NCBI GenBank assembly: GCA_027596075.1
Contig: JADGJC010000265.1
Location: forward strand, 1 to 57,301
Source: Rhizophlyctis rosea
Lineage: Eukaryota; Chytridiomycota; Chytridiomycetes; Rhizophlyctidales; Rhizophlyctidaceae
Direction of reading: 5' to 3'
Length of the DNA stretch: 57,301 nt
Part shown: positions 2,376-35,951 of the stretch, in pieces
Position numbering within the stretch: the first letter of the stretch is position 1
Layout of the letters: each line of letters starts with the position of its first letter
Translations under genes and position numbers: made by a program
The notes under the pieces: generated by a model
Told to the model about the DNA's origin: nothing
The model's database searches: none
Seen by the model: only the letters and a program-made list of their open reading frames with translations

Positions 2376-3068
2376 GATTTAGTAGACTAGCTAGTCCACT
2401 GATCACAACAATTTTTTTGGGAGTCGCGGGGTGGGAGGGCCGGCTTATAAATAATTTTTTCGGAAGTTGCTGCGGCGGAGCCCCGTAATCACGCGCCCCA
2501 TTACAATGTCACTATGAGTCATTGACACGTGGACTCTTCGACAAGGTTCCACAAAGTTTCACAACGACGGCGATTTCCCATCATCATCCTTCAAATCCCA
2601 CACAATTTACATGACTGCGCCACATGGCCTAGACACCCTTCCCGATTTAGGGGTGACTGCGCCACATTATTTGGCCTCCGCATTTGCCGCAAATTTAGGA
2701 GTGACCGCGCCACAATTATCTGGAACAATTCCGGCGATGCGCATGAGTCATTGCTTAATTCATGTCATGTCCCTCTACTGCGCCACACTAGGACACCCTG
2801 GCATATTGTAAGCCACGCTGACATAACGTAAGCCACGCCGACTGACGTAAGACAACGTAAGCCTTACGTAAGCACATGGTGCGAAAGCCACAAATTCCCG
2901 CCTCACCAAGCGGTGGCTGGCACGGTCGGTCACAATGAGTCACCCAGCTACGCCACAGTTGGTCACCCGACCAAGACCAAGGATGATGGGCGCTGCCTAG
3001 GACTGAACCAATGATACACCGAAACGCACACACCACGACTCCATTTTTTGTTTCCCGGCAGGTAGATC
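2376..3068. promoter_or_regulatory. divergent intergenic region with direct repeats
   Basis: No convincing gene. It separates the minus-strand array from the plus-strand thioredoxin ORF and so should hold both promoters. A 13-base motif TGACTGCGCCACA appears at 2612-2624 and 2654-2666, with near copies at 2702-2714 and about 2776-2788. From 2809 to 2880 there are several CGTAAGCCACG(C)-type repeats and a palindromic CTTACGTAAG. AT-rich boxes near 2,410 and 2,450 lie just upstream of the minus-strand start. The regulatory role is inferred from position. Confidence 0.4.
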
Positions 3069-3809
3069 ATGAAAGACGTCATTTTTTACAGCAATTACTG
3101 AAAGAACTGCAAACAGCTTCTAGATTTGATGTCAAAAGCCCCTTTCAAGAATGCTTTTATGTATATTTGCGTTGATGGAAAAAAGGGGGATGATTTACTT
3201 ACTGTATTGGATATTTCATTCGTCCCTTGTCTATTTATTGGAGGTCAGATGATGGTAGGGGCGCAGTGCTTCCAGTGGTATGAATATCAGATGTCCCTAA
3301 GTAAACCTAACGCGACGAGCAACGGCGTTGGGGCGAGCCGGGTACCAGATGGGCGCGACCGTGACATGCGGGCGCCTGTGACGGAGCCGCTGATGCCCAC
3401 GGCTGGGGCTCGCCAGGGTTCGATGCCACCCATGCGTCAGGCGGAAGAGCAATTCGAACCGTTCGCCGCGGGTAATTCGGATTTCCCATTGGCGGACGAC
3501 GGCGGTTTCGCTCCCTTGGCGGCTTCGGGAGGAGGAGGGTCCGACTTTGCCGATTTCAATGACGGAAGCGGGGGTAATGGGGTGCCTATTGGGGATACTG
3601 GTGCCGGTAGAGGAGGGTTCGATCCCAGCCAGTTCCAGGACAGTAGAGCGATGTCGAGGCGCAGGATGGAAGCCCCACGTTTCCCTCAGCCCGAGGTCAT
3701 GACAAAGGGAGACAAGATCTCGGATTCGAACATGAATGATGCTTTGGAGAGGTTTCAGGCCGACCGAAACAGGGGGATCCAGCCGTCCCTAAGTGAACAG
3801 CGGAGATAG
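3069..3809 (+). CDS. thioredoxin-like protein, UGA at active-site Cys
   Basis: From the ATG at 3069 the frame reads MKDVIFYSNY, then TGA at 3099-3101, then KNCKQLLDL and onward to a stop at 3809. The N-terminal 90 residues match a thioredoxin fold: beta strand, active-site loop, helix, CVDG strand, and the cis-Pro loop DISFVPCLFIGG. The active site should be C-x-x-C; the second Cys is present and the first is the TGA codon. The remaining 150 residues are low-complexity, rich in Gly, Asp and Met, and end in a basic tail. Similar small thioredoxins with extended tails occur in large DNA viruses. The TGA may be a nonsense mutation, a base error or, less likely, a selenocysteine codon. Translation restarting at the ATG at 3129 would give a product without the active site. 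Confidence 0.6.
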
Positions 3810-3893
3810 GGCAGTCTTCGTAGACTAAGCAAATGGAATATCCAGATTAGCTTTATTTATCTTAGTCAACAGCCATTATCCTTCTGGAGCTGG

Positions 3894-3939
3894 GCCACCG
3901 CCGCAGAGCGCCCCCTCTGTGTGACGCGGTGGCTTTTTT
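3894..3939 (+). terminator. stable hairpin followed by T6
   Basis: GCCACCGC at 3894-3901 pairs perfectly with GCGGTGGC at 3926-3933. Inside it, CGCAGAG at 3902-3908 pairs with CTCTGTG at 3915-3921 (one G-T pair), leaving a six-base loop and a four-base bulge. Six T follow at 3934-3939. It lies 85 bases after the thioredoxin-like stop codon. Hairpins at transcript ends are known from some giant viruses and hairpin-T from bacteria; neither is usual for fungal genes. Confidence 0.5.
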
Positions 3940-3978
3940 GTGCGCCCATATGGTCGACCCTGACTGACTCTCACCATT

Positions 3979-4058
3979 CCACCTTTTCCCACCTTTTCCC
4001 ACCTTTTTCCCCTAAGACAAGACAAAACAACAAACAACAGGTAACAAACAACAGGTAA
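3979..4058. repeat. short tandem repeats before the 667-aa ORF
   Basis: Two perfect or near-perfect tandem arrays lie side by side: about three units of CCACCTTTTC (3979-4012) and two 14-base units of CAAACAACAGGTAA (4031-4044, 4045-4058). They end 58 bases before the ATG of the 667-aa ORF and may lie in its promoter or leader. Confidence 0.6.
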
Positions 4059-4116
4059 CGATAGTTAACCGGTTGAACTCCCCTTCCAGTATCGGTCTGA
4101 CCTCCAAGTTTGCAGA

Positions 4117-6120
4117 ATGGCGTCATACAAACGCTGGAAGGCCTACCTCCGGTACAAGCTTCTCTCGGACGAACTTTTTACTGTCATTCGTGGCGAAGAT
4201 CTGTCAGGACTGCAGAGTTGGCCGACACACAAGCGTGAGACATACCGTCAACGGCTGCTCCGCGGCTACATCAGGAACAAGAAGTGCATGGAATATCGGG
4301 TCCGCTTCAAATGGGAATACGTACGGGTTCCAGACAAGAATCACGACAAAGCCATCCGGTCCGCGGTCGAAAATGTATCTACCTCCGAACGTCTCCTGTG
4401 CGAATACTACGAAGCCCAAATGCAACAACAACCGACGGTCACGACAGACATCTCGGATGAATTAGAACGGTCAAAGTCACCAACACGGCCTGGTAGATTA
4501 TTGAAGAAGCGATCTCGTGCGTCAAAACCGATCGTCGTCGAAAAGACACCTCCCAAGAAAGCGACATTCTCAGAAGCCGATCTGCGAATGTTTGAAGAAT
4601 TTGAGGAGCGTACAGCCATTGAAGTGGACGGCCTGTATCAGGACGTCTTCTCGCGAATTGCGTGCATCATTGAAGAGTTGTTGAGGGGGGAGACTGGAGA
4701 GGGGACCGGAGATGGGACTGGAGATGGGACTGGAGATGGGACTAAAGATAAGACTGGAGATGGGACTGGAGATGGGACTAAAGATAAGACTGGAGATGGG
4801 ACTGGAGATGGGACTGGTGGGTTCGCTCGTAGCGAGACCGCGGGTGGGGATGGCTATCCGGGGTTTGCGCAAGAAGCTGTGGCGGACACCGTTACGGATG
4901 CAGTGATAGACATGTTTGGGATGCAGTTCAACAAGGATGGGACGATGGCTTCGTGGAAAGATAGGTTGGCGAATGCGTACAAGAGAATGGATAAGGAAGG
5001 TGGGGAAGAACTGCGGTCTGTGATTGAAGGAATTTTTGCGGGCATGAGGACCAATTTCGTGACGGCATCGAGAGATGGAGGGAAATGGAAAGGTGTCGCG
5101 GTGGCGGGGGTTAACTACACGGATGAGGAGATCGCTAAAGCAACATCCGAGTTTGACGCGACATGGGTCCGGAACGGTATTCCATCCCAACCAATCCCAC
5201 CACCAAACGTTACCCATTCCTCCGTCAAATTGAACATTCCTACGAACATCAAGAACTTCTTCGACCATCATGATGTGCAGCAGAACCTCGTACGTTTCCC
5301 AACTTTGAAGGATCTATCGGACGGTCTCGAAGCCTGTCATGGGCGGGAGGAGGACTTGCGAGAGGTTCTGATGCTCCAGAACTTGTCCGCCAAACTCTTC
5401 CAACCAGTCGGCCCATACTTCCGTCATTCTATCGGGAGTGAACTCCTCCTCATCCACACTACGCGTCGGCTCGCCCGGCAGCCACCCTTGTTTTACATCA
5501 GGGAGCTAGCCATCACGGACTGGGGAGGTGGGAATTGGCGGGACCTTGCGGCCTACAAGTTGGTGGCATGGAGAAAGGAGCACAGTCCGAGAGTGGCGAA
5601 AGCGGAGATCAGGAGGCGGTATCAGCAACGTTTGCAGGATGAATCGCTGTTTGCAGCTAGTAGTGAGAGCTCCGTCCTGCATTTCTGTAAGTTGACGAAA
5701 TGGGTGCGGTCGGGAAGGGTGGCTTGGGCAGATGTTGTATTGCGGCCAACACGCTTCTTCAAATCTTTGAACGACATCGACCTTGGCGGCACAGTGGAGC
5801 TTGTTGAGAGCGAAGAAGTACTACAACTGTTGCAGAACATCATGCACACATCCCTAACCCCTAAATATTCCTGCTCCGGACGACCCGATTGTGCACATTC
5901 TGCTGAGCTACTCCTTTGGTTCAACCGCGCTGTGCAGGGAAGCATCGCCATTTGGCTCCTCCATCTTGCTTCCAGTTCCCCCCTGCGCGTAACGCTCCTT
6001 CCCGAACGACGTTTGCGTGTAAGTAATCGTCCTCGTCTGATCTATAAGGAAAACCGTAATTTGGCAACCACTTGTGAGATCTGCAGGTTTATACCTACCA
6101 TGCTACAACAAGGCTATTGA
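4117..6120 (+). CDS. 667-aa ORF of unknown function
   Basis: Long single-exon ORF starting MASYKRWKAYLRYK, with a basic, helix-rich N-terminus (residues 1-100), a basic proline/lysine linker (RPGRLLKKRSRASK, KTPPKK, about 127-150), then a repeat-expanded acidic GDGT/KDKT segment (about 193-234), and a larger globular-looking region to the end. No signal peptide or clear membrane helix. The C-terminal part has scattered Cys and Trp and a late CEICRFIP motif that is too short for a zinc finger call. I do not recognise a family. The absence of introns over 2 kb contrasts with host genes downstream and supports membership in the virus-like block. The stop at 6118-6120 lies only about 90 bases from the end of the opposing damaged gene. 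Confidence 0.6.
   Translation: MASYKRWKAYLRYKLLSDELFTVIRGEDLSGLQSWPTHKRETYRQRLLRGYIRNKKCMEYRVRFKWEYVRVPDKNHDKAIRSAVENVSTSERLLCEYYEAQMQQQPTVTTDISDELERSKSPTRPGRLLKKRSRASKPIVVEKTPPKKATFSEADLRMFEEFEERTAIEVDGLYQDVFSRIACIIEELLRGETGEGTGDGTGDGTGDGTKDKTGDGTGDGTKDKTGDGTGDGTGGFARSETAGGDGYPGFAQEAVADTVTDAVIDMFGMQFNKDGTMASWKDRLANAYKRMDKEGGEELRSVIEGIFAGMRTNFVTASRDGGKWKGVAVAGVNYTDEEIAKATSEFDATWVRNGIPSQPIPPPNVTHSSVKLNIPTNIKNFFDHHDVQQNLVRFPTLKDLSDGLEACHGREEDLREVLMLQNLSAKLFQPVGPYFRHSIGSELLLIHTTRRLARQPPLFYIRELAITDWGGGNWRDLAAYKLVAWRKEHSPRVAKAEIRRRYQQRLQDESLFAASSESSVLHFCKLTKWVRSGRVAWADVVLRPTRFFKSLNDIDLGGTVELVESEEVLQLLQNIMHTSLTPKYSCSGRPDCAHSAELLLWFNRAVQGSIAIWLLHLASSSPLRVTLLPERRLRVSNRPRLIYKENRNLATTCEICRFIPTMLQQGY
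4690..4817 (+). repeat. in-frame 12-bp minisatellite (GDGT)n
   Basis: Tandem copies of a GGAGATGGGACT-type 12-mer, interrupted twice by an AAAGATAAGACT variant, encode alternating Gly-Asp-Gly-Thr and Lys-Asp-Lys-Thr. Units are almost identical, so the expansion is recent. Length being a multiple of three keeps the ORF open. Confidence 0.85.
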
Positions 6121-6212
6121 TGAAACCATACGCAGGGCAACAAGTCGCGCCAAAAACTTTTGTAGCGCACCAGACTCGGCAGTGTAACCCTCCAGTTCAG
6201 TACTTTCCTCTC

Positions 6213-8119
6213 CTACTTTCGGCCGTGATTTACCCACAAATGTCGCATCAGACCGGCATTGGTCTCATCGCCAAGAATAGGCTGAAAACTATTCGGTGGC
6301 TCATCGTCCCAAAATTCCGACCACTCTTTGTGTGAATCATGGTTGGTGTCGAGAGCTTGACGAAAGGAGAAGGATTCCATGAGTGCTCCGATGGTTCCGA
6401 GTTTGTAATACCCTTCCCCAAAGAGCACCAGTCTGCGTAATGCCGGCGAGCCGTTGACAATCCAGTGAAGGAAGGTGAGGACTTCTGTAGAGTAAAGGAG
6501 GCTTTTGTTGATGGAACCGCTGTTGTCTTGGTAGAATACGTCGTTGTGGCCCGTTACTTGGAGGTAGGTCAAGTTCTTGGCAGTTTGTTGTTCGGTGACA
6601 ATTTGATCCATCCACTTGTTGATTGATATATTGTGGGCTCGGCGTCTTCGGCATGAGATTGGTCATGTGGGGGGAGCATTAAGAGCACGTCTTTCAGCGT
6701 GCCACCGAAGTTGCGGAATACATTGGCCATCCACGTATCGTCGATGGTCATGTCCGGATCGTATGTGAGGGTCACGTCAAAGAAGAGGGAATGTAACTGG
6801 AAACCGGTGGCGCTAAGGATGGACCATACAGAAGGTGGGCAGTATCGTAGGCGCAGATGACAAAGGCTAGCCGCGATGGTTTTGAAGGCGATTGGTGAAA
6901 ATGTCACGGTTTTTAACGCGGCGGTATTCAAGTCAAGGGTAGCTAAGGAGGTGCCAAGAATCGCAGATGGATTTTGGAGAAGGGGGCTGTATCTTACTCC
7001 TGGGTTATGGCAAATACAACGAAACGTTTGCAAGCCATTCGTCGACGTGAGAATCTCGTGTGTGATACGTGGCCCATGCGGGTCATCTTCATGGTCACGA
7101 AGTGTTACTGATTGAAGGGTTGGGATAGTAAGAAAGGAACAAGGTTCGATGGAGCGCGATGTAGGTGTCCAAGTCTCAATTCCTTTAAAGCACTCGCACG
7201 CGCAGCGAAGCGTACAAAGGCGTCATTCGCCACTTGAACTGGGGTAGAGTTGAGACTGAGGGTGGTAAAATGCGGCGCAGCTTCGATAAATAGATCGAAG
7301 AGCAAATCATCGATGGATCCTCCCTGAGTGAGATGACAGTTGACCTGTTATTCGCTGCTCATGTAAAATGGAAGGATAGGGATGCCGAAATCACCTTGAC
7401 CCGTCACGCTGACCGTACTCACCTCAATCCAATCATAGTGAACTTCCACTTTCATGCAGATATGGCGCGCAACCGGAGTGCAAATGACATCGAAAATCTA
7501 TCGGTAGGATTGAACGTTTACAGGCGTGATTTGCGCCATGAAGAAGTTGAGACTCTTCAGTGCAGGAAAGGCGTCGACACTAAGAGCCTCATGCAGGGCT
7601 TTGCCGGATGTCTCAAACTCGGCTCCATCAGTATGGAGTTCATTGCGAGCCTCCTGCTCAGAAAGAACGGTGATATGCCTGATCAAACGGTGATACGGGA
7701 TTTGAAAATTTGGAGGAGTAGCGGGTGTATGTTGCTGAAGCAAGTCTTTTGCTTTTGACAGAGCGGCTTGCTGTGTGTAAGCTTTACAGAGGGTTGGGTT
7801 GAGGCGCACCACTTTAGGAAGGTAGGTATCGTCTTTGGAGTCGTAAGGTCGTTTGGACGGGGGATCTGTCGCGTCGGCAGTCAGGTAGTATTCCACATTC
7901 GAGCGACCAATGCTGAGCAAGAACGGCCCTTGCAAAATCCTTATTGACCCAGAGTAGGGTTTCGTTAGAGACGGTCTTGCTGAACTTGACAATGTTGTCG
8001 GCAATGAGGTCGGTTGGAATAGGGGGGGCTTCCGCCGGCCGCTGGCTGGATGATGCGAAAGTGGAAACAATATGGGGCGGGGTTGCATGTTGATTCTGCA
8101 TCGTTGTTTGATCAGACAT
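6213..8119 (-). pseudogene. damaged F-box/leucine-rich-type protein gene
   Basis: From an ATG at 8119 the frame gives a Ser/Pro-rich leader and then PIPTDLIADNIVKF...NKDFARAV, which looks like an F-box-type N-terminus. Downstream segments in other frames read as regularly spaced hydrophobic repeats (LKELRLGHLHRAPSNL; TSLATLDLNTAALKTVTF; ALRRLVLFGEGY) to a stop at 6213. One likely intron lies at about 7,320-7,400 (GTGAGTACGG to CTCACTCAG). Besides that, the frame must shift by one base near 7,900 and near 6,640, and meets a TAG near 7,495. With three or more lesions it is either a decaying gene or a poorly polished region. In a live version it would be a substrate adaptor of an SCF-type ubiquitin ligase; that is family inference. 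Confidence 0.5.
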
Positions 8120-10207
8120 TTCGGTATATGGTTCTAAGCAAGGAGCCGGCACGAGTGCATTGAGACTTTGCGTAAACACGATATGCAATGAGAGACTCTC
8201 GAAAGACGCAAAACCGCACCCACCTTGTACGTCCAGTGCTGATGCGCACATACTCTAAAGCAGTATGAAGAAGGAGACTAATTCTGGAGAATTGTGCTGA
8301 ACCCGTATTTTTTTGGCAAATGTCTATGATCCAAACTCTCGAGGGAAGTGGTTCCCGGAGGAGCTCCCGACCTACATACTGATGACCCAGTGTTTGTTTT
8401 CACGAACGTCCTGCGCCACGGAGCAGCGTAAATCATTAGACGCTCGTGAGGACGAACATGCAACCACAAGAATCTGACAGTTACCTATTTTCGCAAAATT
8501 GGCACCGCCACACCATTCCTTTCCAAACATATTCGTGTCAGATCATGATCAATGTCGCTCATAAGAAAAATTTAAGACACAGTCTCTGTTTAGCAATTCA
8601 CTTGTAAATAGTCGGAAATCGCCGATGTGGGCGAATACTGCTGACGGGAGATGATGAAGATAGATGCATAGGCCTTGCTGATTGACCTAAGTCACCTAAC
8701 AACTTTGATAATTGGTGACGACTTCCAAAGCCTTCGCACGCAGGTCCCTAGTTCCCTCATCAATTCCTATCAAATGCTGCATCGCCGGCATTTGCCTTTG
8801 ATATTGCCCTCGAATATCTTCTCATCAAGTACAATCAATGAGAATTCAACCAACTTCAAGGTTGCGGCTTTCTTTACTTCTGCGTGAGGTGCAAAGCTTC
8901 CTCAACATGAATTTGAACTACCTGTGCATGGTTCAGCAGGGAAGTGGGGGATCTCCAATGGACCTAAAGAAAACGTGATCAATTGATTGATGTGAAAGAC
9001 TGGGAACTTAAACATTGATCTTAAAGCTGTGAGAAGGTGTCAGCTTCCTGGTGCTTCTCATTCCTAATACGGTTCTGGCGCGGGAAGATACCATAACGAC
9101 TCCAGGCTGTAACAGCTCAATCCCAAGTACAGCTCCGGGGAACTGGCCGGAGTAGGACCCAGCGCTGGTCCAGCCCCAGCACTGTCAACACCTATCCCAC
9201 AACGATGTCCACTTGCGCTGGAGATCAGCACTGACACCATTGCAGCCCCAGCGGCTTTCCAGGCCCCATCCAATGCCTATCCAGACCCTCTCCAGCGCTG
9301 GAGACCACTGCAGGAGGACAGTGGTGGGGTCCAGCACCCGGCCAGCACATGTCCAGCGATGTCCAGGACTGTTGTACAATGCTGGGCCAGCACAACCACT
9401 GGACCAGCGGTGGCCCAGCAGTGGTCATACAATCCTGGATGACCACTGGTCCAGTGGGGCATCGGACAATGGACACTCCTAGTACGTGGTTCCCAGAAGA
9501 GTGTCAACTCCTTCATCTTGAATTGGTAAGTGATGTTTTTTTTGTAGTCCACTCTGTGTCTATCGAGATAAACATCAAGTAACATGTGTTTCATCAATCA
9601 TGATCCGCATCGGCGGATTCAAGCAACCGTGACTTACGTAAGCCAGACTTGCGTCCTGGATGCAGGTCACATTGGCCATTGAATTGATTCCTCTATGCTA
9701 TGCTTGCTATACTATGCTATGCTTGAACTCCAGTAACTCCCGATCATACCATCATAAAGACCCTGATTCACGATCCACTTCCCTCTCCAACTTCGAACTA
9801 CGATCGCGATGGCCCATCAATCTGGCTTACTGTCCCATTCCCAACTTTCGGTTCGATGAGAACTAACCTCATCATCCCTTTTCCGTTCACTGGATCTGTC
9901 GGGTCGCCTCTTTCGCTGGCATATTAACTTTCCCAAACCGCAAAAACCTACACACCCTTGATATTACCGTTTCGCTACTTTGGGAGCCGGTGTCAGCTCG
10001 TTGCTCCGGGTTTTCATTTTGATCTCTTGCCATTGCATTGCTCTCCTCCCCCACGGGAGTTGTCATTGCATTGCTCTCCTCCCCCACGAGAACCATCCTG
10101 TCAGATTCAGTGGATTCCTTCTGCAGCAGCTATTTTGCCTGACCATCTGTGCATGTTGCCTGGCAATTTTCATCCCACATTCTTCCCATCCCGTCACATC
10201 ACGCCAA
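8120..10207. other. intergenic, minisatellite but no gene seen
   Basis: Short ORFs only, without recognisable content. The segment contains the CCAGC-rich minisatellite described separately and, at about 9,630, a palindromic CTTACGTAAG also present near 2,865. The last 300 bases before 10,208 should hold the promoter and leader of the receptor-phosphodiesterase gene; TATGCTATGC-type repeats occur at about 9,695-9,725 and two copies of a CATTGCATTGCTCTCCTCCCCCACG block at about 10,032 and 10,063. Confidence 0.5.
9064..9480. repeat. degenerate CCAGC-rich minisatellite
   Basis: About 400 bases with irregularly spaced CCAGC, CCAGCGCTGG, TCCAGC and CCACTGG(A/T)CCAG elements on both strands, giving overlapping chance ORFs in several frames. 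Many units are self-complementary, so the array could fold. It looks like an old, diverged tandem array rather than coding sequence. Confidence 0.6.
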
Positions 10208-13200
10208 ATGGCCTACGATGTTAGATGGCCCTCCCTAAGTCGAATATGGGCGCTTATCTTTATTCTCCGACCAACACCTGCTCTGGGACATGACCCTCCA
10301 CCACCATCTCCCACACAAGCATCAGCACCTATTCTTCACCGCCGCCAACTTACCACCAACCTCACAATAGCCTTTCCAGTCCCCACCTTATCGCCGGGCT
10401 ATCTCGCCATTTACGATACGATGCGCATGGCTGTTGATGACGTGATTTCACAGGGAATCCTACCAGGAGCTAACGTAAACTTGATCGTGAACCAAACTGG
10501 GACTACAAGGGGTTCCCTTATATCGACGGTCCTCACAGAGATAGTTCGACAAACGAGTATCGCCATTATCGGTAGGTTTCTTGGACCATATCATGGCAGC
10601 CCGAAGTCAGACATATATTGGTGCTGCCTTCTTTTCCTGCTATCTGACTGGACTTCTTACAGCACCGGGCGCCCAGTCTATAGACATAGCATGGACGGCA
10701 TCCTTGTACAACGTTCCCACATGTGAAGGATCCAGTAAGTGGTCGATTAATCTTTGCCACGAGCGGCTAAATAGTGACACCTGCTTTCGAATTCCTCCAT
10801 TTGTCCGCATATCATCCAAACTCGCTTTATTCAGTCTCTTACGTGGATCTTGAGCACGCCACCACTCCATCTCTTATGTCTACAGTACCATCACGGTCGG
10901 AATGGTTGAATAGTGTCGGAAGGTTTATGCGGACGCAGGGGTGGACGTGGTATGCACTTGTTGGGGTATTGCCGGATACCACAGGTAGGATGAGATTCGC
11001 TCGCATATAAGTCGGCAACAGGAGCTTTTGCCTCAAATGACAGCCAACACAACGGCACTACATTTTGATCTCATATTTTCGCCGAACCTACCCAGAAACA
11101 TCATTCCTCCCAAACCTCGCCGTTTCAGCCGTAAATAGTGGAATAACACCCACATGTATCTACTCGATATTGGTCACCTCTGATTCCACGTCCGCATCCA
11201 CATCCCTCTTGACACCCTCGCAGTCTTCCACAAACTTCACCACAGCAACACCTACTCCTATAGCAAGCTTTAGCGCCACCACTAGTATATTGAGCAACTC
11301 AACTGATGATCAGTGGACGGCGAAATTTCAAAAGGTTTTGGGAGAGGTGGTGATTAGTAAGGCGGCTGTGGTTGTGTATGTGGGACAGGAGAGTAGGTTT
11401 TTGACCATGATGCGGACTGCTAGGTATGTTCGGTTGAGGTTGGGAGGAGTCAGGACCCATTTGAAAATCTGGCGGTCTTTCATAATTGCGGAACGGAAAA
11501 GCGTGAATGGTTTGGACGAGGTGTTTGTGGTCAGAAGTGGAGAGGGGAAAGAGTTGCAAGAACCGACAAGAGACAAGAAGTGCCAGTCAGTGCTTATATG
11601 TTACACGGGACCTCAGGCGACGTCTCGGAAACTACGAAGCTTGTAGATTTGTGGGAGTCAATTTGCGGAATACCCCAATTGCAACACTCACCCATCACAC
11701 CCACTCCCATCCAGATCACTAAATCTTCTTACCGCCGACCGGATCTGGATAGTGCCTGGACCAGTTTTTCGCTACATACTCAACTCCACGGATTCCGACC
11801 TCCCTTCTTTACTCGAAGGCGTCATCGTGGTGGGCACAGCGGGTGGCACAGGTGCCGTGTTTGACAGTGTAGCAGCCCGATGGAATGATACAAGCGTCAT
11901 AGCACGGTAGGTACTCATCACGTGGGTTTCCAGCGGACTGAGACGCAGACCCGGAGATTGCTCTTGTTGATTTTCAGGTAAACCCTGTTTTTCCGTTCCA
12001 GGTATCCAGGTATCCAGCTGTATCCTTATCCCACACCACCCTTAATGTAAGCTGTTTGATATTCATGGCATGCAATACGTCTGCATGTGTGTGCGCCGTC
12101 CATCTTGACATTTTGTGTCGCACATGTCAGGTATTACCGCACGTGTATTGAAGTTCTTCTAAATGGTTATCATCGAGTGAGTTCCTGATGCAAAGAACAA
12201 CTTGATCCCACCCAATATCACTAATTTTCAGCCCCTCCACAGAAACTCCTCGCAAACCCCAGCCTAAGCCTGGCCGACCTTTCCAAAGGCTACAACGGCA
12301 CCACTGTCCAGACCATCTCCGTTCCCTCCGACTTCATCATGCCCGATCTCCTCACCAGCACAGGACCTGCAATATTTGACCCAAATTACGGCGACCGGGC
12401 AGGGATGTTTGATTTGTTTTATATGGATAGTGATAAGAATCCTGTGCGGTTTGGTGGGATTGGATTGGATGGAATTCCGAATATCACGGGACAACTTGTA
12501 TTTAGGGGCGGCGTTGTTACGCCGCCGGAGGATATCATTGGAAAGAAGAAGTTTGGTGAGTTCTTCTTGTGATTGTGAGAGTGAAGTTACTGGACGGCGT
12601 TGTTTCTGATATGCGTTTTGCTCTAACTTCATGCAAACAATGTTTGACAGATTGGGCCGCAAAAATCCTAGCACCAGTATTAGTCTGCCTAGCAGTATTA
12701 GGGATGATCCTAGCCGGATTTTGCATCCGACGGAGAAGAAAAGGACGGCAGGAACAAGAGCTTTTGAACTTGAAAGCCAAAGGCCTAGTGAACGCCCCAA
12801 AAATGGAAGTAAACGCACCCGCCCAACGCGCCATCGAACTTTTAAAGGGAATACAAACCCGACGGAAGAACACGCTATCGCCTGGAGATATTGAGTTCCT
12901 ACTAGGCGTTTTGACGTCCGGCGAAGGGGGATTCACGCCAGATATGATACGGATGACGGGAGGGGCGAATATCGATGAGGAGTCCAGAGCATTCATTAAT
13001 GATATGGTGTTGGGAAGTCGAAGGACGGGAAGTAACCCGTATAGCACGACGAGTGGACAACCTAGTGCGGTTTGGCCACCTCCTGGGAGTGGGGTTGGGG
13101 TGATGAGTAGAGGAGGTTCAGAAAGTAGTGATCGACACGCCATGAGTCTTCATGCCCAACACTCCACATCAATATCCCAACCCCCGGGCACTACTACAGC

Positions 13201-15826
13201 ATCAACAAACCCCATCTCACCCCCTACGTCAACCTCACCCGGTCCCCTACGCGCCCTTTCCCATCGTCAATCTCTAAGCGACTTCACCCAACCCAACACC
13301 GACTCCGCATCCCTTCTCCCTGCCCTGCCGTCCTTCACCTCCCCAAAACCTAGCGAAAGAGAGATCAGGAAAATGAGTGTCACAAGGCCAAGAGGGGAGA
13401 ACTTGAGTTTCAGTTCAGAGCATCCGCCCAGTGCTGGACATTCAGCACAGCCCTCGACGCATCAGATGCCGTACATGTATGCTAGTGGGTATTTGGTGAC
13501 GAGTGACCATAGGCCCAGTCATGATATGACGCCTCATCCTATAAAAGGTGGGTTTTTGCGACTAGTTTTTTTCCCAGTGGCGTGCATGTGTTTCGGGAGT
13601 TTTCTGTGTCTTCGTCCGACGTTTTGCGCAACCCCTTGCCCCCAACATCTCATGTGTCTCCTCTGTCGCAGGCCTGGAAACACTCGACGTTCAAAAAATC
13701 AGAGACTACCTCGACTTGTGGTACCATAGCTGGAACTTTGATATGTTCCTGTTCAATGAAATGACCGGGGGTCACCCACTATATTTCTCGGCGCTCTATG
13801 CATTTCAGGCTAGTGGCGTTCTAGCACAATTCCAGGTCGATCTGAATAAATTCAAACATTGGATCTTGGTAAGTTATTTCATCCCACTACTTCCTGAGTT
13901 ACCTTACCTGTTACTGATCGCATTCGTGATCGTCACTGACCCCGAACATGGAAAAAGTTGATAGAATCCAATTACCACTCACATCCATATCATAACGCAA
14001 TCCATGCGTCGGACGTGTTGCATGGGCTGGGGTATCTAATTTTGGAGGATCCGATGGGCCAGAGTTATTCGCCTTTGGAGACTATGGCGGGAATGCTGGC
14101 GGCGGTAGGGCATGATATTGATCATCCGGTATGCTGCTGATGGTTTGTTTCTTTGAGAGTGGAAAGTTGGGCTAGGTGTTTTGTTTCGAGGACAACGGAC
14201 TAACAGGATGGACTTACGCGGAAATGGCAGGGGTTGAACAATAACTTCATCGTCAAGAGCCATCATCCGTTGGCGCTGTTATATAGGTAGGTTTTGGTTG
14301 GAGGGCGGGGTGCGCATTTTAAGTGGCTCTCGGACGGATTAATTGGGCAGCTAATCATCTTCCTTTTGGTCAACCTCTCAATTCACCAGTGATACATCAG
14401 TCCTTGAATTCCACCACGCTGCGCATTTTTTTCGAATATCCCATAAGTCCCCACACAACATATTTGCAGATTTCACGGCGGAAGAGTATGAAGAGATTCG
14501 TAAAATCATTATCCGGTTGATTTTAGCTACTGATATGGCAAAGGTGGGATTTAAATCGAGTCAAGGATGAACACCAATTTTGGCTTACGATCAAATCCAA
14601 TGCAATATCAGCACTTTGAGTACCTTTCAAAATTTCGATCAAAACTCACCGCCTCTACCCCACATTCAAACGCAACAACCCCGACAATCCTTCCAATCAT
14701 CAACTCCCATTCATCCGTTCCACAAGCACCTCCAGCCCTATCTCTCCAACATCCCGAAAACCGTCTCGTAGTCCTTGAAATGGGCATGAAGTGCGCCGAC
14801 CTCGCCAATCCCTCAAAAACCTTCGCCCTCTCCAGCAAATGGACTGAAGTGATCATGGAAGAGTTCTTCCGACAAGGCGACAAGGAGCGCGCGATGGGTT
14901 TACCAATATCTCAATTCATGGACCGGACCGCAACAAATGTCGGGAAATGCCAAATTGGGTTCATCGATTTCCTGGTAGCGCCTATGTATGAGGCGTGGAA
15001 TTTGTTCTCTGGGGGTTCGGAAAAAACCGGGAGAATGTACGCGGAGGTGCTCAAGAATCGGAATAAGTGGGCTGGGTTGAGTAATTCAGCACAATTGAAG
15101 GAGCAGGAGAAGAGGGAGCAAGGCGGTGGTGGGGCATCTGGGGATGATAGAGATAGAGACCCATCTACATCAGTATCCTCACCGCGAGATAGTGCCAAAC
15201 CTCCAGATCGAATTTCGCGCTCCAAAGGCAACAGCTCGCGGACAGCTCCCAGCGGCTTTGGAGGGCTTGGAGAAATGATTGGTGGGATTGTGGGGTCTAT
15301 ACCCGGGCCTTCGCAACTATTCGGGGGCGGAGGAGGTGGTGCGGATCGAGCAGGAAGTGCTTCTCCAGCTTTCGACCGAAAATCCAGATCTATTGATACT
15401 TCAACAAGTAGTCTTTCTGTCCGACAGATCGGGGGTATCACCATTCGACGCAAGAAGGAGGCAGGGTCAATGAGTGCGCCGGAGCGGGGAAACAAGAGCT
15501 TGGAACGGAGGAACAAAGAAGGTGAACAGAGTGGAAGAGAGCGAAGCCGGGACCGCGAGCGTAGACATCGAAGCGAGAGGCATGAGAGGGGTGGACCGAG
15601 TGAAGCGGAAGTGGAGGAAGGGGTAGGCATGGACGAGCGTGTGGGACATAGTTATCATTTGAGTGCACGAAGTCTTCAGGATGGAGGGAAGGGGCTGAGA
15701 GAAAGTGGCGCGGAAATGGGAAGTAAGAAGATGAGCCAGGCTGCATCTGAGGGTTTGGAGGGCGGAGTTTCAGGTGTTGGGTCCGACATCTTTGAGAAGG
15801 GCGATAAAGGAGAGTTTTGCGGTTAG
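10208..15826 (+). CDS. ANF-receptor/TM/cyclic nucleotide phosphodiesterase
   Basis: Predicted 1,399-aa type I membrane enzyme. Exons: 10208-10571, 10663-10734, 10835-10984, 11096-11423, 11715-11906, 12002-12046, 12131-12176, 12243-12555, 12651-13547, 13672-13868, 13958-14128, 14231-14286, 14390-14543, 14612-15826; all junctions GT-AG and in phase. Order: signal peptide (1-27), a type I periplasmic-binding/ANF-receptor-like ectodomain (about 45-495; VPTLSPGYLAIYDTMRMAVDD, STVPSRSEW, WIVPGPVFRYIL), one membrane helix (about 509-529) followed by RRRRK, a 270-residue linker, then a class I PDE domain (about 803-1130). PDE residues present: HNxxHxxDV (880-888), HDIDHPGLNNNF (920-931), TDMAKH, CADLANPSK and the invariant Gln in QIGFIDF. 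The tail is charged and disordered. It should hydrolyse cAMP and/or cGMP under control of an outside ligand; specificity cannot be read here. The 291-base fourth intron could hide another exon. Confidence 0.85.
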
Positions 15827-16515
15827 TCCGGTGAGATTTGGAATTTGTCGGTCGGGTGTACCTGAGAGGTTGGGAGAGTTATATGGATTTCGTTGATTTT
15901 GAGGGCCGGTAGGTATAGCGAAAGGGAAGAAATGCGGGAAGGCATGATTAGGGCAAATGCTGGACTTTTGCCACCCCTTTGGTGTTGACGCTTACTTTTA
16001 ATCTGGATGATTGCTTTTTTCCGTTTTGCTACTTATGTAATGAATAATACTTCCTCTCTTGGCTGCTGGCTTATCTGAAGTTTGCCCGCATAAACATCTT
16101 GGAAGGAAAATGCTCGAAGAGTGCGGAGTCTTCATGAGAAATATGTCTTTTGGGGCTTCGTCATCGTGCCTTTAAAAATTGATTTCCGGGCATGGGCATG
16201 CAGGTAGTTTTCCCCACTTTCACTCCTTCAAGCCTCGAATTGGAGGCTAATCATCACACCCGATAATTGCGACTCCTGGCGCATGAAGAGAGAATGAAGG
16301 ACATGTATCTACAGCTAGGTTGTCCGGATTGCGCGCACACCGCAATCGGCCAGCGGTTCAGATGTTGACCACAAAATCCTTTGCAAAGTTTTGAGAGCGA
16401 AATCTCAGGAGTGAATGGTTGGCCTTGTTTACAAAATCTCTAGCTTGAAAGTCATTTGTCAATGAAATTCGCCTCGGCAAGAGGAAGGAAAATTTTGCCT
16501 TAGCTGTATCAACCT
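15827..16515. other. convergent 3' intergenic region
   Basis: Lies between the stops of the receptor-phosphodiesterase and the class C GPCR. It should contain both 3' untranslated regions. I see no ORF or RNA gene. Confidence 0.6.
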
Positions 16516-19500
16516 TCATATGGCACTTGAACTCCTCAAACGATTAAAAAGATTGGTAGTAGATCCCTTTCCCCTTGTCTGCCGAACTCCATCGCCTCCG
16601 CCTCCTTCACCCATCTCCATCCTCGCGGACGCACTAATAACCCCACCATCCAAGGTCGACCCTGTGCCAGCTTTCCCCATCCCCAACCCACCAAACCCAG
16701 ATGCAGTCCCTGAGGAATTCTTCAAGTCGTCCAAATAAGTTGGCGGACTCATACTGGCTGTCATGTGGGGAACTTTGCCGTCACGTAAATCACTTCTGAT
16801 CGCACTCTGGTTGACTCGACTGACGCTATCACGGATGCTAGGAGCATTGATGATGTTTGCTGCCATGAGGAGTTTGGGGACAGCAAAGATAAGGGTTGAA
16901 AGGACGGTTGCTAGGAAAGTCCCTAAGCCTATCAGAAGGAGCCTGTTGTGTTGTGAAAAGGAAGGAAAAGATCAGAAAGTGACCAAGGAGTGCATCAACC
17001 AAGAACGTATCAGTGAATCCTTACGAAATTTGAGCTTCTTGGACCACTATTGGAGGATTAGGACGTCAGCACTAACTTCAAGAATGCCCAGCTGACTGTA
17101 GGTAAAAGCAAACTACGTACGTTGTAGCACTGGTACAATGACAATGGTCACCACCGAAATCAGAAGAATAGCAGATGCCGTGAATAAGCTTTCATTGAAG
17201 CCTGTAAATCAACCGAACGCGATATCAGGATCTCCGTTCGCTTCGAACTGCATAATGAAACTCACTGGAAATGACATTGCGAGTTCGGACTGCAAAGATG
17301 GCAGCTGCTACCATGATCAGACCATTATACTGTACGGATGTCGTGTTTGGTCAGTGGCCAATAGAGAACTCACTAATGGATGCACAAGGAAGCATTTTTG
17401 ATCTTGACTAACCAGATACAGCAAGGCCGTAGGTACCGGGTGCAAGACTGGACAGTCTTCCTGGGTCAATACGAAATTTGTATTTGGCAGCGTTGTCGTT
17501 CGTGATCCATCTCGCTTCACAACCAAGAACTGATAGAGCTGTGCAAGAAAGCTGATTAGCTCTTGAGATTTCTCATCTTAGAGACGCACCCATCCATCGT
17601 ACCAAGCACAGTACTATATTCCCCAAGTCAATATATAGAATCCAGAGCATGAGCACTTTAGACTTTATAACCACAAGCTCCCCTTTGCCGGCGCCCCGGA
17701 AAATACGGTCGATGCGGTAGGATTTCATTGCCAACGAGCCAAGGAGGCTCGAAAACCCGACCGAAAAGAACCAGTCTATTTGGTGATTTGTTGTCCCTGT
17801 GCAATCATGAATGTGGTAGGCATAGTGACTCACATGTTCCGAAGCATTGAAACCATCCAAGTTTCCCATCAAAACTGATGCGCATGATGACAGATAGAAG
17901 CGTTCCTATCCCACCTGTAGGTTGAATCGCATGAGATTGGGTGCATTTCGCACCAGGCTTTTCAGCATGGGGCTTACCCAACATAATAATCAAACTAGGC
18001 CCTACAGCCGCTGCCCGAATGACTTCCGTATTGCGATACCAGAAGAATCCCGCCATAAGAAGTAACTCAACAATGATGCCCAGGATGGAAACGGCAAGCA
18101 TCCCTCGGCCGATTGTTGATGTGTGGAAGATTTGACTACTGGGCAGGTAATTTTGGATGGAAGCGGGAGGTTGCTCAGCTGTGACAAGATCGGTGCGACA
18201 GATGTTATCGATGTTGGCGACCCATGTGTAGTTGACCGTCACATGGTTGTTTGATATGTTGTCAATAAGGGTGACGTTCCACTGGTCTTTTGTGCACGGT
18301 GGTCTGCTGTCCCAATTTACCGTCTATGGCAGATGTACAACTTATTAACCTCCCTGATGTCGCTGTGCAAAAGTGATATGGCTCACTTACGTAGCAAGCT
18401 TTGTCAATCGCACGTTGTACAGTCCAGTTCTGAAAATAAATGACAGTTCCAGACGACTCTTTCATATCAATATTCTGCCCCAGTGACAAACCTTGAAGAT
18501 GATCCTCAAGAAGGCAAGGTACTAATAATGATGGTGGTAGTTGGTCTACCATCAAATCGAAGTTCACATTTGGCTTACCATTGGATCATCTTGGGAGATC
18601 TTAGACCACCCAGGCTTCTGCTCCGCTGGATATCCCGCAAATGTAGCGTGATCTTAATGAACAATCTCGTACGTCAGTGTCCTCAAATACACATACAAGA
18701 GGAAGCGTCCCAGCTCACCCATCAGTCCGTAGTCAAACATCCTCGCGCCGACCTGGTTTCATGTCAAGGACTTTGCACACAATACCCTTCCGCTCACCAA
18801 AACTTACCGATAGTTCTGGCGCATACCGTGCAGACTTCCAAGCCGAGGTTCCATGCGTATTTTGCGGAACATTCACTGCGAGACCTTCATTATTGCCAAT
18901 TGCAAGCAACAAGGCCTCATATGAAATGTCAATATCCCGTGCACTTGTGGGGATACCAGCCAATATGGCCTGTGCATATGATGTGCCAGTTGGTGGATAG
19001 ATTTCCTGGCAACTGGCTTGCAAGCAATTCTCCTCATCAAAGCCTGTTGAAAGTGAGTGGGCATCACCGTGTAGATTCACTATGTGTGCCACTGTGGCTG
19101 CTTACCTTGAGTTACGACTGGCCCATTCCAGGCAGGGTGATCAAGAGTCGGGAACCACTCCGCATCATCATCAGCCATCCATAGATCGAAATCTGTTCGG
19201 TTTCGAGGCACCAAATTCTGCATCAGGTCCGGTTTGCTTTTCCACTTCACGCTGTGTTGCACAACGTTCAGTGTCCCGTTACGTTGTGATGAATCCTCCA
19301 AGGTAGGGTTTTGCAAGGCATACATTGTCTCATTCAGAGCCTTTTCAAAGTGTTCATCCATGCCACAACGACCATCCGCTGTGAAGAAGGAACCTGCATT
19401 CCAAAGCAAAAATCAGCGTTGGTGAAGACGTCAAAAAGGCTGAGCACTGACCAACACTAACCTCCCCAAAATGCACTCATTTTTGCTGCCAAGACCGTCT

Positions 19501-21942
19501 GTCTGCCCGTTTTCGGCGGCAGTGTGTATATCTGCCGAAAGCCTATTGACAGCAAGCGCTAATCAGCACCAAACACCTTCCCAAATCGAACTTGTCCGCA
19601 AAACACTCACCTTTACTATACATTACATCCAAATATCTATTGAACTCACTCATGTTCCAATTTTTCCACCATGCGCTGCCCCAATCTGTCAGTGGAGGCG
19701 GCAGCCTTAGCTCGCTCAGTCGCAAGTTATCGGTATTAACTTTCCATGCCGCAGGTGAGAACACGTGGCCGGGAATGGCGTACAGGACGTTGTTGGTGTA
19801 TACTAAGCTTTTGACTACCGCTTCCATCTGCCTAGGAGTTGTTGGTTAGCAATATGATCAACAACGTACAAGGGGGGAGAAGGTCCCACATCCAATGCCG
19901 GGTCGAATCTGAGCAGAGGACATGAATCATGAATTACAACACAAGGCATGAGAAGCACCTAACACATGTACATACCCGGTAGTTCTATAATCTGGTGATG
20001 TTGTCATGACATGTTCTCAGTTAGCGACGCAAATTACGCTAATAACATCATGGCAAGTTCTACATACATTTCAAAGCAGACTCGCCTGTGCTCAGAAATG
20101 AATCAGTTATTGTTCATCAAAAGAGTGCTCTGATCCAAAGTCCGACGCTTGTACACACTCAATGGCTGCAGCACAGCTTTCTGATCTTTCAAAATCCCCA
20201 GTTCAGAATCAGTAAACAAGACAACGTCTGGACAAAGCCATCGTTCCGCATTCGTTGAGCAGTTGAAGTCAACCTTAGCGACGGCTTGAAAATCTAATGG
20301 GGCGACAAGTCAATTTCCCATCCACTCTCTGCACCCAGCTTCACCCCCAAAACTCACTTCGGAGGTAATCGTTAGGACCCCAATACTTCAACGGAATCTG
20401 CTGTCGCACATAGACCACCACATTAATTCCATCCCGATCCCGCTTGATCTTGACATAAGTCGCAAATGCAGCGAGGTAGAGATTTAGATTATCTTGGTAG
20501 AACGGTGCCCAGATGTACAAGATTGTTTTGGCAGTCGCCATGTTGCCGATAATGTAAAAGTCGCCGTTGAATACCGCTGGGGTAGAGACTTTTCAGTTGA
20601 TGGGTGAGAGAAACTGAATTTGTATGAGATCAGAACTTACTGCAAGCGTATAGAGGCGTCGGGTAATCTATGGCGTTGAACGTCATGGTGGGTGCCTGAT
20701 TGCATACCGTAAGTCTCGTTTCTTGGTAGGAGAGGATCGAAACAAGCATACATACACCGTAATCTCCACCCCACATATTGTCAATAAGGAGATTGTTCTC
20801 TTCATATTGAATCCCAACCGACAGGTTCATAGGGACTGCACCAGTCGTCGTACTACGTATTTCAATTTGAGCAGAAGATCAAAGGAGAAAAGGTTCATGT
20901 TACATACTCTCGCCATGCATGTATTGATATATCATTAAGATTCGAGACTGTGAGGGAATGTTGATGAGGGAAATCATACCAACTATCTCCTTGCGATACT
21001 TACAGCCCCGTCTAGCCGGAGCGTAGCACGACCATTGTGGAAACACGCCAGTATCTGGTCGAAATGAATCATTCGAAGTCACAAACTGTAATCCGTCATT
21101 GCTGAGCTGTGTCGGTACACCATTGACATAATAAGGTGGAGTGACGTAGCGAGGCGCAAGGACAAAGTCGGCGGGCTGTATGAGAAAAAAGCAAGTCAGG
21201 CAATATCAAGTCATTTCTCGGGCCATTGCGAAAATGATAACATCTAAAATTGATACATACATTCCCCAAGTACGCGAAAACATAGTAAACGGTACCGTTA
21301 GTCTGTCAAAACACACATCCACGTAAGTAGTTCCTCTCAATGATGAACATCACAATCAAGATATCACATACCCCAGGAGGAGTCTTGATAAGAACGGACC
21401 TGAACTCCGCATTCGCCGTGCCATAAGTAGTGTAATAAGAGTCCAGATCGATAGTAAACGTATTCCAGGCATTCAAACTCATTTGCGACACCCCAGCAGC
21501 AGATGGAAGCGGTTTCTCATTCGTTGAAGCAGCACTGGAAGTACTGAGATCAAAGTAGAGTTGATCAAGGGTCGAGTTTGATGACTAAGTTCGAGTGTGA
21601 GCGCGCAGGTTTTCTTGAAAAAAGATCATCGGTGATCAGACTTACGAATATATTCACCGTCAGGGTTTTATAGGTCGAATTACTGCTTGACACGTAAGGT
21701 GTTGACACGGCGCGCATCTCGAATGCGTCCCATGAGCCTTCTCCAACCACTTGGTAGACCTCGGCCAGGAGGGGATACGATGAGGGCAACGGTGCAGGGT
21801 AGGCGGATGGAGCGATGACTTGATGTGACTGAGCCCAGCTCCAATCCTCGAAATGATTAATATAGTTGCATTTGAGGAAGTTGGCAAAGGTAGGTCCGGT
21901 GAAGTAAATGACCACGAGGTCGAATAACCAAAGCCGCTGCAT
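16516..21942 (-). CDS. class C GPCR with solute-binding ectodomain
   Basis: Start ATG at 21942 in a CACCATGC context, then a signal peptide (MQRLWLFDLVVIYFTG). Exons in transcript order end to start on the minus strand: 21942-21646, 21584-21372, 21302-21261, 21175-21004, 20947-20908, 20852-20756, 20695-20641, 20576-20358, 20293-20159, 20085-20068, 19991-19976, 19908-19890, 19827-19611, 19542-19462, 19393-19106, 19043-18808, 18752-18719, 18652-18579, 18474-18391, 18323-17978, 17914-17834, 17775-17590, 17538-17420, 17329-17266, 17201-17121, an unresolved stretch, and about 16942-16516. Residues 1-250 form a beta-rich, Ser/Thr-rich region; about 306-720 look like a type 2 periplasmic solute-binding domain (PDVVLFTDSELGILK, LVYTNNVLYAIPGHVF); 780 onward is 7TM_3, with WYRNTEVIRAA after TM1, SYRIDRIF after TM3, TRNV and FNES around TM5-6, and FAVPKLL after TM7. 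The Ser/Gly-rich tail is cytoplasmic. It is probably a surface chemoreceptor for a sugar or similar solute. Confidence 0.82.
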
Positions 21943-24300
21943 GGTGGGTGTTGCACGATTACTTCCAAGAGCGGGAACTGTGCACGTCAAAAAGACCAGT
22001 GCAAGCTAGACATGTGTGTGTTTCATTGGGATTGGATTCCGCTGAATTGCGCCAATTCGTGTGCGCACGATGAGATGTTCAACAAACAGTCAGTTGTGCT
22101 TGTATGTGGAGAGCCAGGACAAAAGGAGATGACATTTTCCAAAGAACGTCGTATCTGGGCATAAACCGCATTCACGATCAATGAGGATACTAACGATCTG
22201 ATCGGTGAGTCAACTTGCTGTCACGACGCCTCTTTTCATTTCAGGAACTCTTTTCGGCCCGCAACCATGAATTCAAACTATCGTGTACAGTGATGTCGAT
22301 TGCGATGGGTCTTCCGTCTTTTCAGCTGGAGAACTGAACTTTGGCTTACGTCACCTTCTGCTTCACGTGGGTCCTATAACCGGATGCCCATCCTTTGGTG
22401 GTGCGCAATCATGAAGGAAGACATTTATACGCCTGAGAGATGCCTGTGAATCAACGACGCCGACGCTTCGCGCATCAGAACTTGATGTGCCATTATAGGT
22501 GTACGAAGGCAGTAGGGTTTTGCCCGCCGGCGTCGTATCTTCGAAATCTAATCTGCAATTTGCTGCTCATGCAGAGAACGAAACCTGCCCTCCCCCAGAC
22601 GAAAGCGACACAAAGGGAATAGCGGCCGAACGTACTGAATGTCGCTTTCTTGTTGAGAACTTCTACCCTCCCATTCACATTTTGAACACCTCGGATTCCT
22701 GAAGTTCGCAAATCATCCAATGCTGTTTTGATACGATTTGAGGTACCTCCCTCCTATGATGCATGTGTCTTCTTCACAACTCCGGGCCACTGAGTGCTTA
22801 GCTCCAAGCGCATCACAAGCTGCTGCATTACGTACATTTTGTTACAATTTATTTCTCTTTTTCCATGTCCGATTTTTCGGTGAATTGATTCCAGGTCATA
22901 GCTCAACCAGCAACCCAACCAACTGAGTTGGGGGCGAGCGAACTTGTTCAGGACAGAACTTAGCAACGTTTGCAGATGCGGTCTCAGGGTTTCCCCGACT
23001 TGCCGCAAAGTATGATGATAGTGTGACGCACAATCCTTTTTTTGCTATCTTAATCTCAACAATTGCAGCTCACGTCCAAGTCTCATTAGGGAATGATGAC
23101 GGTTAGCTTCATTGAATTGATTGAGCCCCACCATCTGTCAAGACTTCCCTTGAATCGGAGGAGTGAGTGCACTGCGTCATATTCTAAGGGGGAACACTGG
23201 GAACAAACTGACTTGGAAGTAATCACGCCTGTCAAATGCTCGCACAGATTTTACGGCTCCACACTTCAGGTCAAGTCCTGTGCGATGTGCTGACTTGTAC
23301 CCCCGCTATTCCAGTGTCCTTTTTTCGTCAATCCACCTCATCACCCTTCGTCCCTCACTATTTTCCTGCTCGGAAAAAAGAACCGTTCGGCATCAGCAAC
23401 AAATCAAACATGAACCAATCACTGAATGGGTCACCCTCACAACGGAAACATCGATGCATACAACGGATTACTGCAACATGTTGAAGGTCTCTAGCCCGGC
23501 TGTGGCCTTATCTGGCAAACTTCGCAATGTGAGTCCATTGATATTGTTTGTCATCGCACCCTGCTAGCTACCGCCATCTCATTTAAAGCCCGGCAAATAC
23601 TTTACATGGACAAGTGCCCATCGGTTGTAAATTTGATACCAATACCACGCATAAGACACTAGCAAAAAGATATATTCTCACCTCCACGCGGGTCAGCGGA
23701 GGGAAAGTCATCACGATATTATCGTGTCAACATCAGTTGCTGGAACTTCTCTCGCTCATGTATACTCGTAACTTTTCAAATAACCTGCCCTTTCCCAATC
23801 CGTTCTGCCGAAGTTTACCTTTGTTGCCATGTCTTCTGCTTGTAATAGATCTCCCATAGAAGGACGCGGGACATTGTAATGCGGCCAACTGCCCCCATCA
23901 ACTGTACATGGTTCAACGTTTTTTTTTTTTGGTGCCAACACTTGTCAGATTACCATCGATGTGGCCATATTTCAAGAATTGAATATCAAAAAAAAAAAAC
24001 GGACTACCGTATGAAGGATCTGGCAATTCAGAAAGACTGGTCGGAATTCAGGAGCCACCAGGCAATGGGGGACAACTTGACACAGATTTTTCGTCGCAAG
24101 GGCACATGCAAGCATGTATGTTGGGACATAACTATCGCATTCATGTTTGCATACTCGTGTTTACGAAGCAATCAGGTATTCCATATACCGATACCCAAAA
24201 AAACACAAAGCATTCTTCCAAAAAGAATATATACGCAGTAAATCAAAGGAAAGCACCACCCCATATAACCCCACACAACCCCACACAACCACCCCTCCCC
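21943..24300. other. intergenic, no gene seen
   Basis: About 2.4 kb between the start of the GPCR gene and the end of the glycosyltransferase gene. ORFs are short and unlike proteins. A T11 run near 23,920 and an A12 run near 23,990 lie 60 bases apart and could pair. A C-rich CACACAACC repeat occurs at about 24,265-24,300. The part next to 21,942 should hold the GPCR promoter. Confidence 0.5.
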
Positions 24301-35504: not shown

Positions 35505-35951
35505 TTATCGACGTCCAACCCAAAACAACCAACCTTCCAACCCTTCCACATGATCCACCACCACCCCCATACTCCTCAACGACGCCGCGCCACTACACTC
35601 CGCCACAAAATTAGGCGGCTCCTTCACGCCCATCACCACTCGCCCGATCTTCGCCTCCAGCAAAAGATTCGCACAGGGTGTCTTGCCGGATAAGCGGAGA
35701 CCACATGGCTCCATTGTTGTGTATATTGTTGCGCCGTGGGCGAGGGTAGGGGAAGGGAGTTTGAGAAGACATACTTCTTCTGCATGGGTGTTTCCGGGGA
35801 GTTCGCGGGAGTAGCCTGTTGAGAGGATTGTGGGGTGGGGACCGGGGGAGAGTAGGAGGGCGCCGACGCAGTAGGCTTGGTCGGAGGATGGGGACTTGTT
35901 TGCTTCGGCTATGGCTTGGAGCATGTAATCTCGGTCTTGGTTGGTCGTCAT
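35505..35951 (-). CDS. cytidine-deaminase-fold enzyme, RibD/Rib2 type
   Basis: 148-aa single-exon protein, start at the ATG at 35951 directly before the conserved domain (MLQAIAEANKS); the upstream open frame is basic leader-like sequence. Zinc site: HAEE at about residues 65-68 (His ligand and catalytic Glu) and PCGLRLSGKTPC with both Cys ligands. The G-Y-S-R-E and MEPC spacing matches the deaminases of riboflavin synthesis and related fungal one-domain proteins. The riboflavin enzyme deaminates a diaminopyrimidine intermediate; here the substrate is not certain. It is convergent with FPP synthase, 227 bases between stops, and divergent from RPS28. Confidence 0.8.
   Translation of the reverse strand: MTTNQDRDYMLQAIAEANKSPSSDQAYCVGALLLSPGPHPTILSTGYSRELPGNTHAEEVCLLKLPSPTLAHGATIYTTMEPCGLRLSGKTPCANLLLEAKIGRVVMGVKEPPNFVAECSGAASLRSMGVVVDHVEGLEGWLFWVGRR

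Follow-up and report, generated by a model that had tools for sequence, protein, structure and literature searches.

A predicted single-span receptor phosphodiesterase in the chytrid fungus Rhizophlyctis rosea

The window analysed here is a 57,301-nucleotide stretch of Rhizophlyctis rosea DNA (contig JADGJC010000265.1), and the gene at 10208..15826 on its forward strand probably encodes a single-span receptor phosphodiesterase (PDE), in which a Venus flytrap-type ectodomain would gate a class I PDE. Both ANF_receptor and PDEase_I exceed their Pfam curated cut-offs within one predicted chain, and no other family, including the output domain Guanylate_cyc, matched the whole chain at E ≤ 1. The class C receptor family 7tm_3 likewise found no Pfam match in the chain, which has one strong hydrophobic segment and not the array of a sensor with seven or eight transmembrane (TM) helices. 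Read at the level of sequence, the locus presents a plausible single gene, a defined domain order, the catalytic motifs of the enzyme and a linker shared with paralogues. The initial annotation had placed receptor domain, membrane helix and PDE in one chain; the gene model, the placement of the linker within the TM-coding exon and the colinear paralogues bear this out, with curated-model support for the ectodomain confined to residues 70-188.

Gene model, membrane helix, linker and catalytic domain

The gene model is comprised of 14 exons (10208-10571, 10663-10734, 10835-10984, 11096-11423, 11715-11906, 12002-12046, 12131-12176, 12243-12555, 12651-13547, 13672-13868, 13958-14128, 14231-14286, 14390-14543 and 14612-15826), which together give 4,200 nt in consistent phases and encode 1399 amino acids. 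Independent rebuilding of the model from the raw sequence reproduced the previously annotated count of in-phase exons and coding bases, with no internal stop, one terminal stop and GT-AG borders at 13/13 introns. Retention would introduce an in-frame stop at nine of the 13 introns and, by their length, a frameshift at introns 1, 2, 9 and 10. Splice sites were scored with leave-one-out weight matrices trained on the gene's own introns and ranked against the GTs and AGs of the window. The donors of 11 introns fell in the top 5% of GTs, with intron 6 in the top 10% and intron 7 in the top 12%. Acceptors scored weakly at introns 1, 8, 11, 12 and 13 and poorly at intron 10 (AAAAAG), although the last of these joins has support from the protein, which aligns with PDE8A across it without a gap. 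The ANF_receptor match covers the joined exons 1-3 and is missed when exons are scanned singly, and therefore also supports those joins. The gene is presumably expressed as one mRNA. A strongly hydrophobic stretch, LLQQLFCLTICACCLAIFIP (10118-10177, forward strand), lies in frame directly upstream of the first ATG and has no start codon; the true N terminus might take in this stretch through an upstream exon.

The membrane helix spans residues 509-527 (12665..12721) with a mean Kyte-Doolittle hydropathy of 2.67, as compared with 1.48 for the next most hydrophobic segment, and is followed at residues 530-534 (12728..12742) by RRRRK, a likely cytoplasmic stop-transfer signal. The helix and basic cluster are thus as initially annotated. 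N-x-S/T sequons are unevenly distributed, with eight of 12 within residues 51-504 and four within residues 528-1399, and this spread, together with the position of RRRRK, fits an arrangement with the ectodomain outside the cell and the PDE inside.

The helix, RRRRK and a conserved PDE-associated linker (residues ~555-625; 12803..13015) all lie within one uninterrupted exon, 12651-13547, and the linker residues match a region that precedes the PDE domain in five further PDE genes of this fungus. A phmmer search with residues 541-640 against the linkers on contigs C108 and C242 and 2,000 shuffled sequences placed C108 at the top (E 0.0013). In reverse, a profile of the C108 and C242 linkers ranked the candidate (E 3.8e-4) above all 2,000 shuffles, of which the best reached E 0.005. 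A profile of all three linkers was run on 2,696 six-frame open reading frames from 11 stretches, nine of them PDE loci and two of them from C496. Beyond its own members it recovered C371 (E 5.8e-10), C62 (E 9.3e-9) and C334 (E 1.8e-5), in each case on the PDE strand, with the first PDE match about 0.2-0.9 kb further downstream. The same profile returned nothing at E ≤ 5 on C102, C5, C27 and C431, and chance-level matches (E 1.1 and 3.7) on C496. When the candidate was excluded and a profile was built from the five other linkers, the candidate's TM exon frame headed the ranking of 6,465 sequences at E 0.033, followed by the full candidate chain (E 0.15), with the next sequence at E 7.3. The linker, which gave no match in the PDB, is accordingly present at six of the ten PDE loci covered; of the 11 contigs with PDE matches, C235 stands outside this count. 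C108 and C242 each encode hydrophobic segments, linker and PDE in succession within a single open frame. Because the linker sits in the TM exon and is shared by colinear PDE paralogues, the membrane helix, linker and PDE are read as parts of one gene. Residues ~626-802 (13016..13547) form a spacer rich in serine, threonine and proline.

The catalytic domain occupies residues 879-1128, encoded by exons 11-14 (13988..15010), where PDEase_I scores 269 bits (E 5.1e-80) over model positions 1-228 of 238, above the curated cut-off. The chain contains the motifs PYHNAIH (878), HDIDHPG (920), SVLEFHH (947), TDMAKH (991), CADLANP (1056) and CQIGFIDF (1108), of which PYHN..H, HDIDHPG, CADLANP and CQIGFID align with PDE8A and with the PDB entry 6fg5. 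We take these motifs to supply the metal-binding His and Asp residues and the Gln that binds the purine of the nucleotide. By domain and motif the protein is a predicted class I PDE, and each element of the complete domain that had been annotated (the metal motifs, TDMAKH, CADLANP and the nucleotide-binding Gln) was found. The nearest solved structures are 6fg5 and 6ezu, both labelled only as Phosphodiesterase, and PDE8A, PDE7A and PDE4D, which their depositors name as cAMP-specific; cAMP is therefore the likelier substrate. The C-terminal tail (15011..15826) is largely low-complexity and charged.

The ectodomain and the intron 8 seam

The ANF_receptor match (residues 70-188, exons 1-3; 10415..10962) scores 29.7-34.8 bits against a curated cut-off of 25.4, with 31.3 bits (E 1.5e-7) on the full chain and 34.8 bits (E 1.2e-8) on residues 1-537. 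It spans model positions 4-125 of 353, corresponding to the N-terminal lobe. The remaining ectodomain (residues ~196-504; 11096..12555) is a possible C-terminal lobe with a serine/threonine-rich insert (~222-265). A broader profile of bacterial type I periplasmic binding proteins (PBPs) was built from 30 sequences, comprising 28 of 30 loci (L140 and L166 having been dropped for length), LivJ and LivK. This profile gave 1.1 bits on residues 263-504, and its scores were reached by seven of 2,000 shuffles for residues 46-504, by six for residues 263-504 and by 22 for residues 46-196. With hhalign, the C-terminal part scored 18.4 and was beaten by five of 100 shuffles. The best sub-threshold local alignments to bacterial PBPs fall, in our reading, at the positions expected of a type I binding protein. 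We take the ectodomain to be a divergent flytrap domain whose second lobe is putative.

A number of results weigh against a gated flytrap receptor encoded in one chain. The annotated signal peptide (residues ~1-29; 10208..10294), read from the sequence, is marginal, and no 19-residue window in that region reaches a Kyte-Doolittle value of 1.2. The initial annotation had assigned all of residues 45-495 to an ANF-receptor or type I PBP domain; the curated model upholds residues 70-188 of this, and residues 195-540 matched no Pfam family at E ≤ 10. On residues 1-537 NCBIfam gave no family at E ≤ 1, and no PDB chain matched the ectodomain at E ≤ 1. A narrow LivJ/LivK-type profile (81 sequences) did not detect the ectodomain, the 30-sequence profile gave a non-significant E of 25, and hhalign with the same alignment returned probabilities of 0.4 to 1.0%. 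An ectodomain paralogue was absent from this genome at E < 0.1. The linker scores low in each single test, and the matches listed for the phmmer query with the candidate linker did not include C242. Within the gene, reading exon 8 through its donor meets a stop after five codons (...GKKKFGEFFL*), and an in-frame ATG inside intron 8 (12611) could begin a separate TM-PDE protein.

Alternatively, the ectodomain could be some other extracellular fold with a chance local ANF_receptor match, and no type I PBP, as the limited span of that match and the lack of a match in NCBIfam or of a significant match to the bacterial profiles suggest. We consider this very unlikely, given that the ANF_receptor match exceeds the curated cut-off at E 1.2e-8 across three joined exons, and that the best sub-threshold PBP alignments lie where the fold expects them, at scores that few shuffles reach in either the C-terminal or the N-terminal part. 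Compatible with such a fold, and unlikely in our view, is a single receptor-PDE chain in which the enzyme is constitutive and the ectodomain serves anchoring, localisation or adhesion. The flytrap fold is supported in one lobe only, the chain carries a serine/threonine-rich insert and a long low-complexity spacer, and the rhodopsin-PDE is gated only about 2-fold according to the available part of PMC7644710. However, six PDE genes with unlike N termini retain the linker next to the PDE domain, as they would a transmission element.

The exon 8/9 join is the weak seam of the model. Intron 8 (12556..12650) separates the ectodomain from the membrane helix, and the locus could be divided there into two adjacent genes, one for a secreted PBP-like protein ending after exon 8 at the read-through stop (12570-12572) and one, beginning at the ATG ahead of the membrane helix, for a single-TM PDE with a signal anchor. 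The intron 8 acceptor, merely in the top 23% of AGs, would agree with this division, but the donor (GTGAGT) is in the top 1.7% of GTs and a CTAAC motif, of a kind present in six of the 13 introns, lies 28 nt upstream of the intron end. Moreover, the ectodomain would then stop exactly where the membrane anchor begins, and the 38 bases between the stop of one putative gene and the start of the next make a two-protein layout unlikely. The two-gene model is possible but strained, and we regard it as quite unlikely.

The search for ectodomain relatives gave two matches outside the gene. C496:6182-6298 (E 0.17) was rejected as a paralogue, its frame being thioredoxin-like by eye, and the other match was C460:101324-101611 (E 1.08). 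Scanning the genome exon by exon with ANF_receptor and Peripla_BP_6 gave no match to either, which is uninformative in that the candidate's own exons were likewise missed.

Proposed mechanism and relation to known receptors

For the favoured single-chain receptor, the architecture suggests gating by a ligand. A Venus-flytrap-like ectodomain of the type I PBP, ANF-receptor kind would bind an extracellular small ligand or peptide, and its closure on the ligand, probably within a dimer, would move the sole membrane helix. The linker would then re-pack and relay the shift of the helix to a catalytic domain of the PDE7/PDE8/PDE4 kind. In turn the PDE, probably dimeric, would alter, in whichever direction, the rate of cAMP hydrolysis, and perhaps of cGMP hydrolysis as well, close to the membrane. 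In this way one protein would lead from an external ligand to lower cAMP or cGMP, which would allow a heterologous test and make a useful tool.

Receptor guanylyl cyclases are built from a binding-protein ectodomain, one TM helix and a cytoplasmic cyclic-nucleotide enzyme. The candidate has the same plan as these cyclases, exemplified by the natriuretic peptide receptors, but their output domain makes the messenger whereas here it would hydrolyse it. To our knowledge, single-span cyclic-nucleotide receptors make their messenger, and in the fusions that degrade it the sensor is of the light or GPCR type (GPCR, G protein-coupled receptor). Mammalian PDE8A, PDE7A and PDE4D, among the closest solved catalytic domains to that of the candidate, have no receptor ectodomain that we know of. 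Somewhat short of an even prospect, the candidate could be a ligand-gated mirror image of the receptor guanylyl cyclases within a modular set of this fungus, in which differing inputs (a single-span ectodomain, multi-span membrane domains and large soluble regions) are joined to a shared linker.

The portion of PMC5168858 available names a solute-binding protein (SBP) domain for guanylyl cyclases of the natriuretic peptide receptor type. The same portion describes class C GPCRs of gut fungi as lacking ANF domains, with almost half carrying type II SBP domains, so that a fungal protein with an ANF-type ectodomain is of note on its own. Fungal class C GPCRs likewise place a binding-protein-type ectodomain on a receptor, with seven TM helices as opposed to one in the candidate. 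The choanoflagellate rhodopsin-PDE (Rh-PDE) also joins a sensor to a class I PDE through a linker in one membrane protein; in the sections of PMC7644710 drawn on here, that sensor is a retinal-binding domain of eight TM helices and the PDE domain was superposed on PDE9, in contrast to the one TM helix and extracellular domain of the candidate. The Rh-PDE linker was modelled there as a dimeric helical coiled coil and likened to a HAMP domain. The fungal linker is comparable to it in proposed role rather than by known kinship; being common to PDEs with unlike inputs, it is a concrete candidate for a transmission element. Oomycete GPCR-PDE bigrams similarly combine a membrane receptor module with a C-terminal PDE, but they typically have seven TM helices and no ANF ectodomain is named in the accessible text of PMC6033456, whereas the candidate has one helix and an ANF match. 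With GPCR-PDE and rhodopsin-PDE fusions known, a messenger-destroying receptor has precedent in kind. Three types of enzyme-rhodopsin are named in the excerpt of PMC8815786 consulted, and the word phosphodiesterase is absent from that of PMC12716839, on choanoflagellate GPCRs. An ANF-TM-PDE receptor appeared in none of the titles or abstract beginnings among the literature matches listed, and two scans of viral contigs gave no relative; databases may well hold entries with this architecture.

Other phosphodiesterase genes and neighbours in the window

In the genome of 44.1 Mb and 634 contigs, matches to PDEase_I occur on 11 contigs and matches to Guanylate_cyc on seven. The genome also contains matches to IFT46 and Chitin_synth_1, which make a zoosporic fungus plausible; the picture most naturally fits a flagellated fungus rich in surface sensors. 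Phototaxis in zoospores of Blastocladiella uses a rhodopsin-guanylyl cyclase to raise cGMP, and a phosphodiesterase activity towards cGMP has been reported there (PMC4046227, in the part available), so cyclic nucleotide control in zoospores is a fair setting, and nothing more. Bac_rhodopsin had no match in the genome, though the controls gave none either.

Among the other PDE genes, those of C108 (L040, 4029-6884, reverse strand) and C242 (L041, 5900-8800, forward strand) each have one open frame that runs through several membrane segments and the linker to a PDE domain. Two and five membrane windows, respectively, exceeded the threshold, with about six in each protein by eye, and Pfam named no sensor domain in either at its cut-off. 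AlphaFold2 models of the two were discarded, their mean predicted local distance difference test score (pLDDT) being 43.1. The C62 gene (L044, about 2088-7457, forward strand) has upstream frames that appear by eye to belong to a large multidomain protein of the kinase/ATPase type, followed by the linker and PDE. In C5 (L045, 2036-3660, reverse strand) GAF domains lie upstream of the PDE domain on the same strand, and GAF domains preceding a PDE domain are the arrangement of the animal GAF-PDEs.

Convergent to the receptor-PDE gene lies a class C GPCR-like gene (16500-22000, reverse strand), with 7tm_3 at 17519-17776 scoring 31.7 bits, or 40.8 bits with its neighbours, and a second frame at 20.3 bits, below the cut-off. 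At E ≤ 0.001 the genome has 65 exon-level 7tm_3 matches, one of them within the window, amounting to a major expansion of class C GPCRs. The ectodomain of the neighbouring GPCR resembles a type II solute-binding protein by eye, and C35 carries an ectodomain that also looks SBP-like. Local fusion from the neighbouring class C GPCR is unsupported, both of these ectodomains being SBP-like and not ANF-like by eye. Further along the window, a frame at 35505-36107 (reverse strand) matches the Pfam deaminase families Inv-AAD (invertebrate AID/APOBEC-deaminase; E 1.3e-27) and dCMP_cyt_deam_1 (E 3.7e-14).

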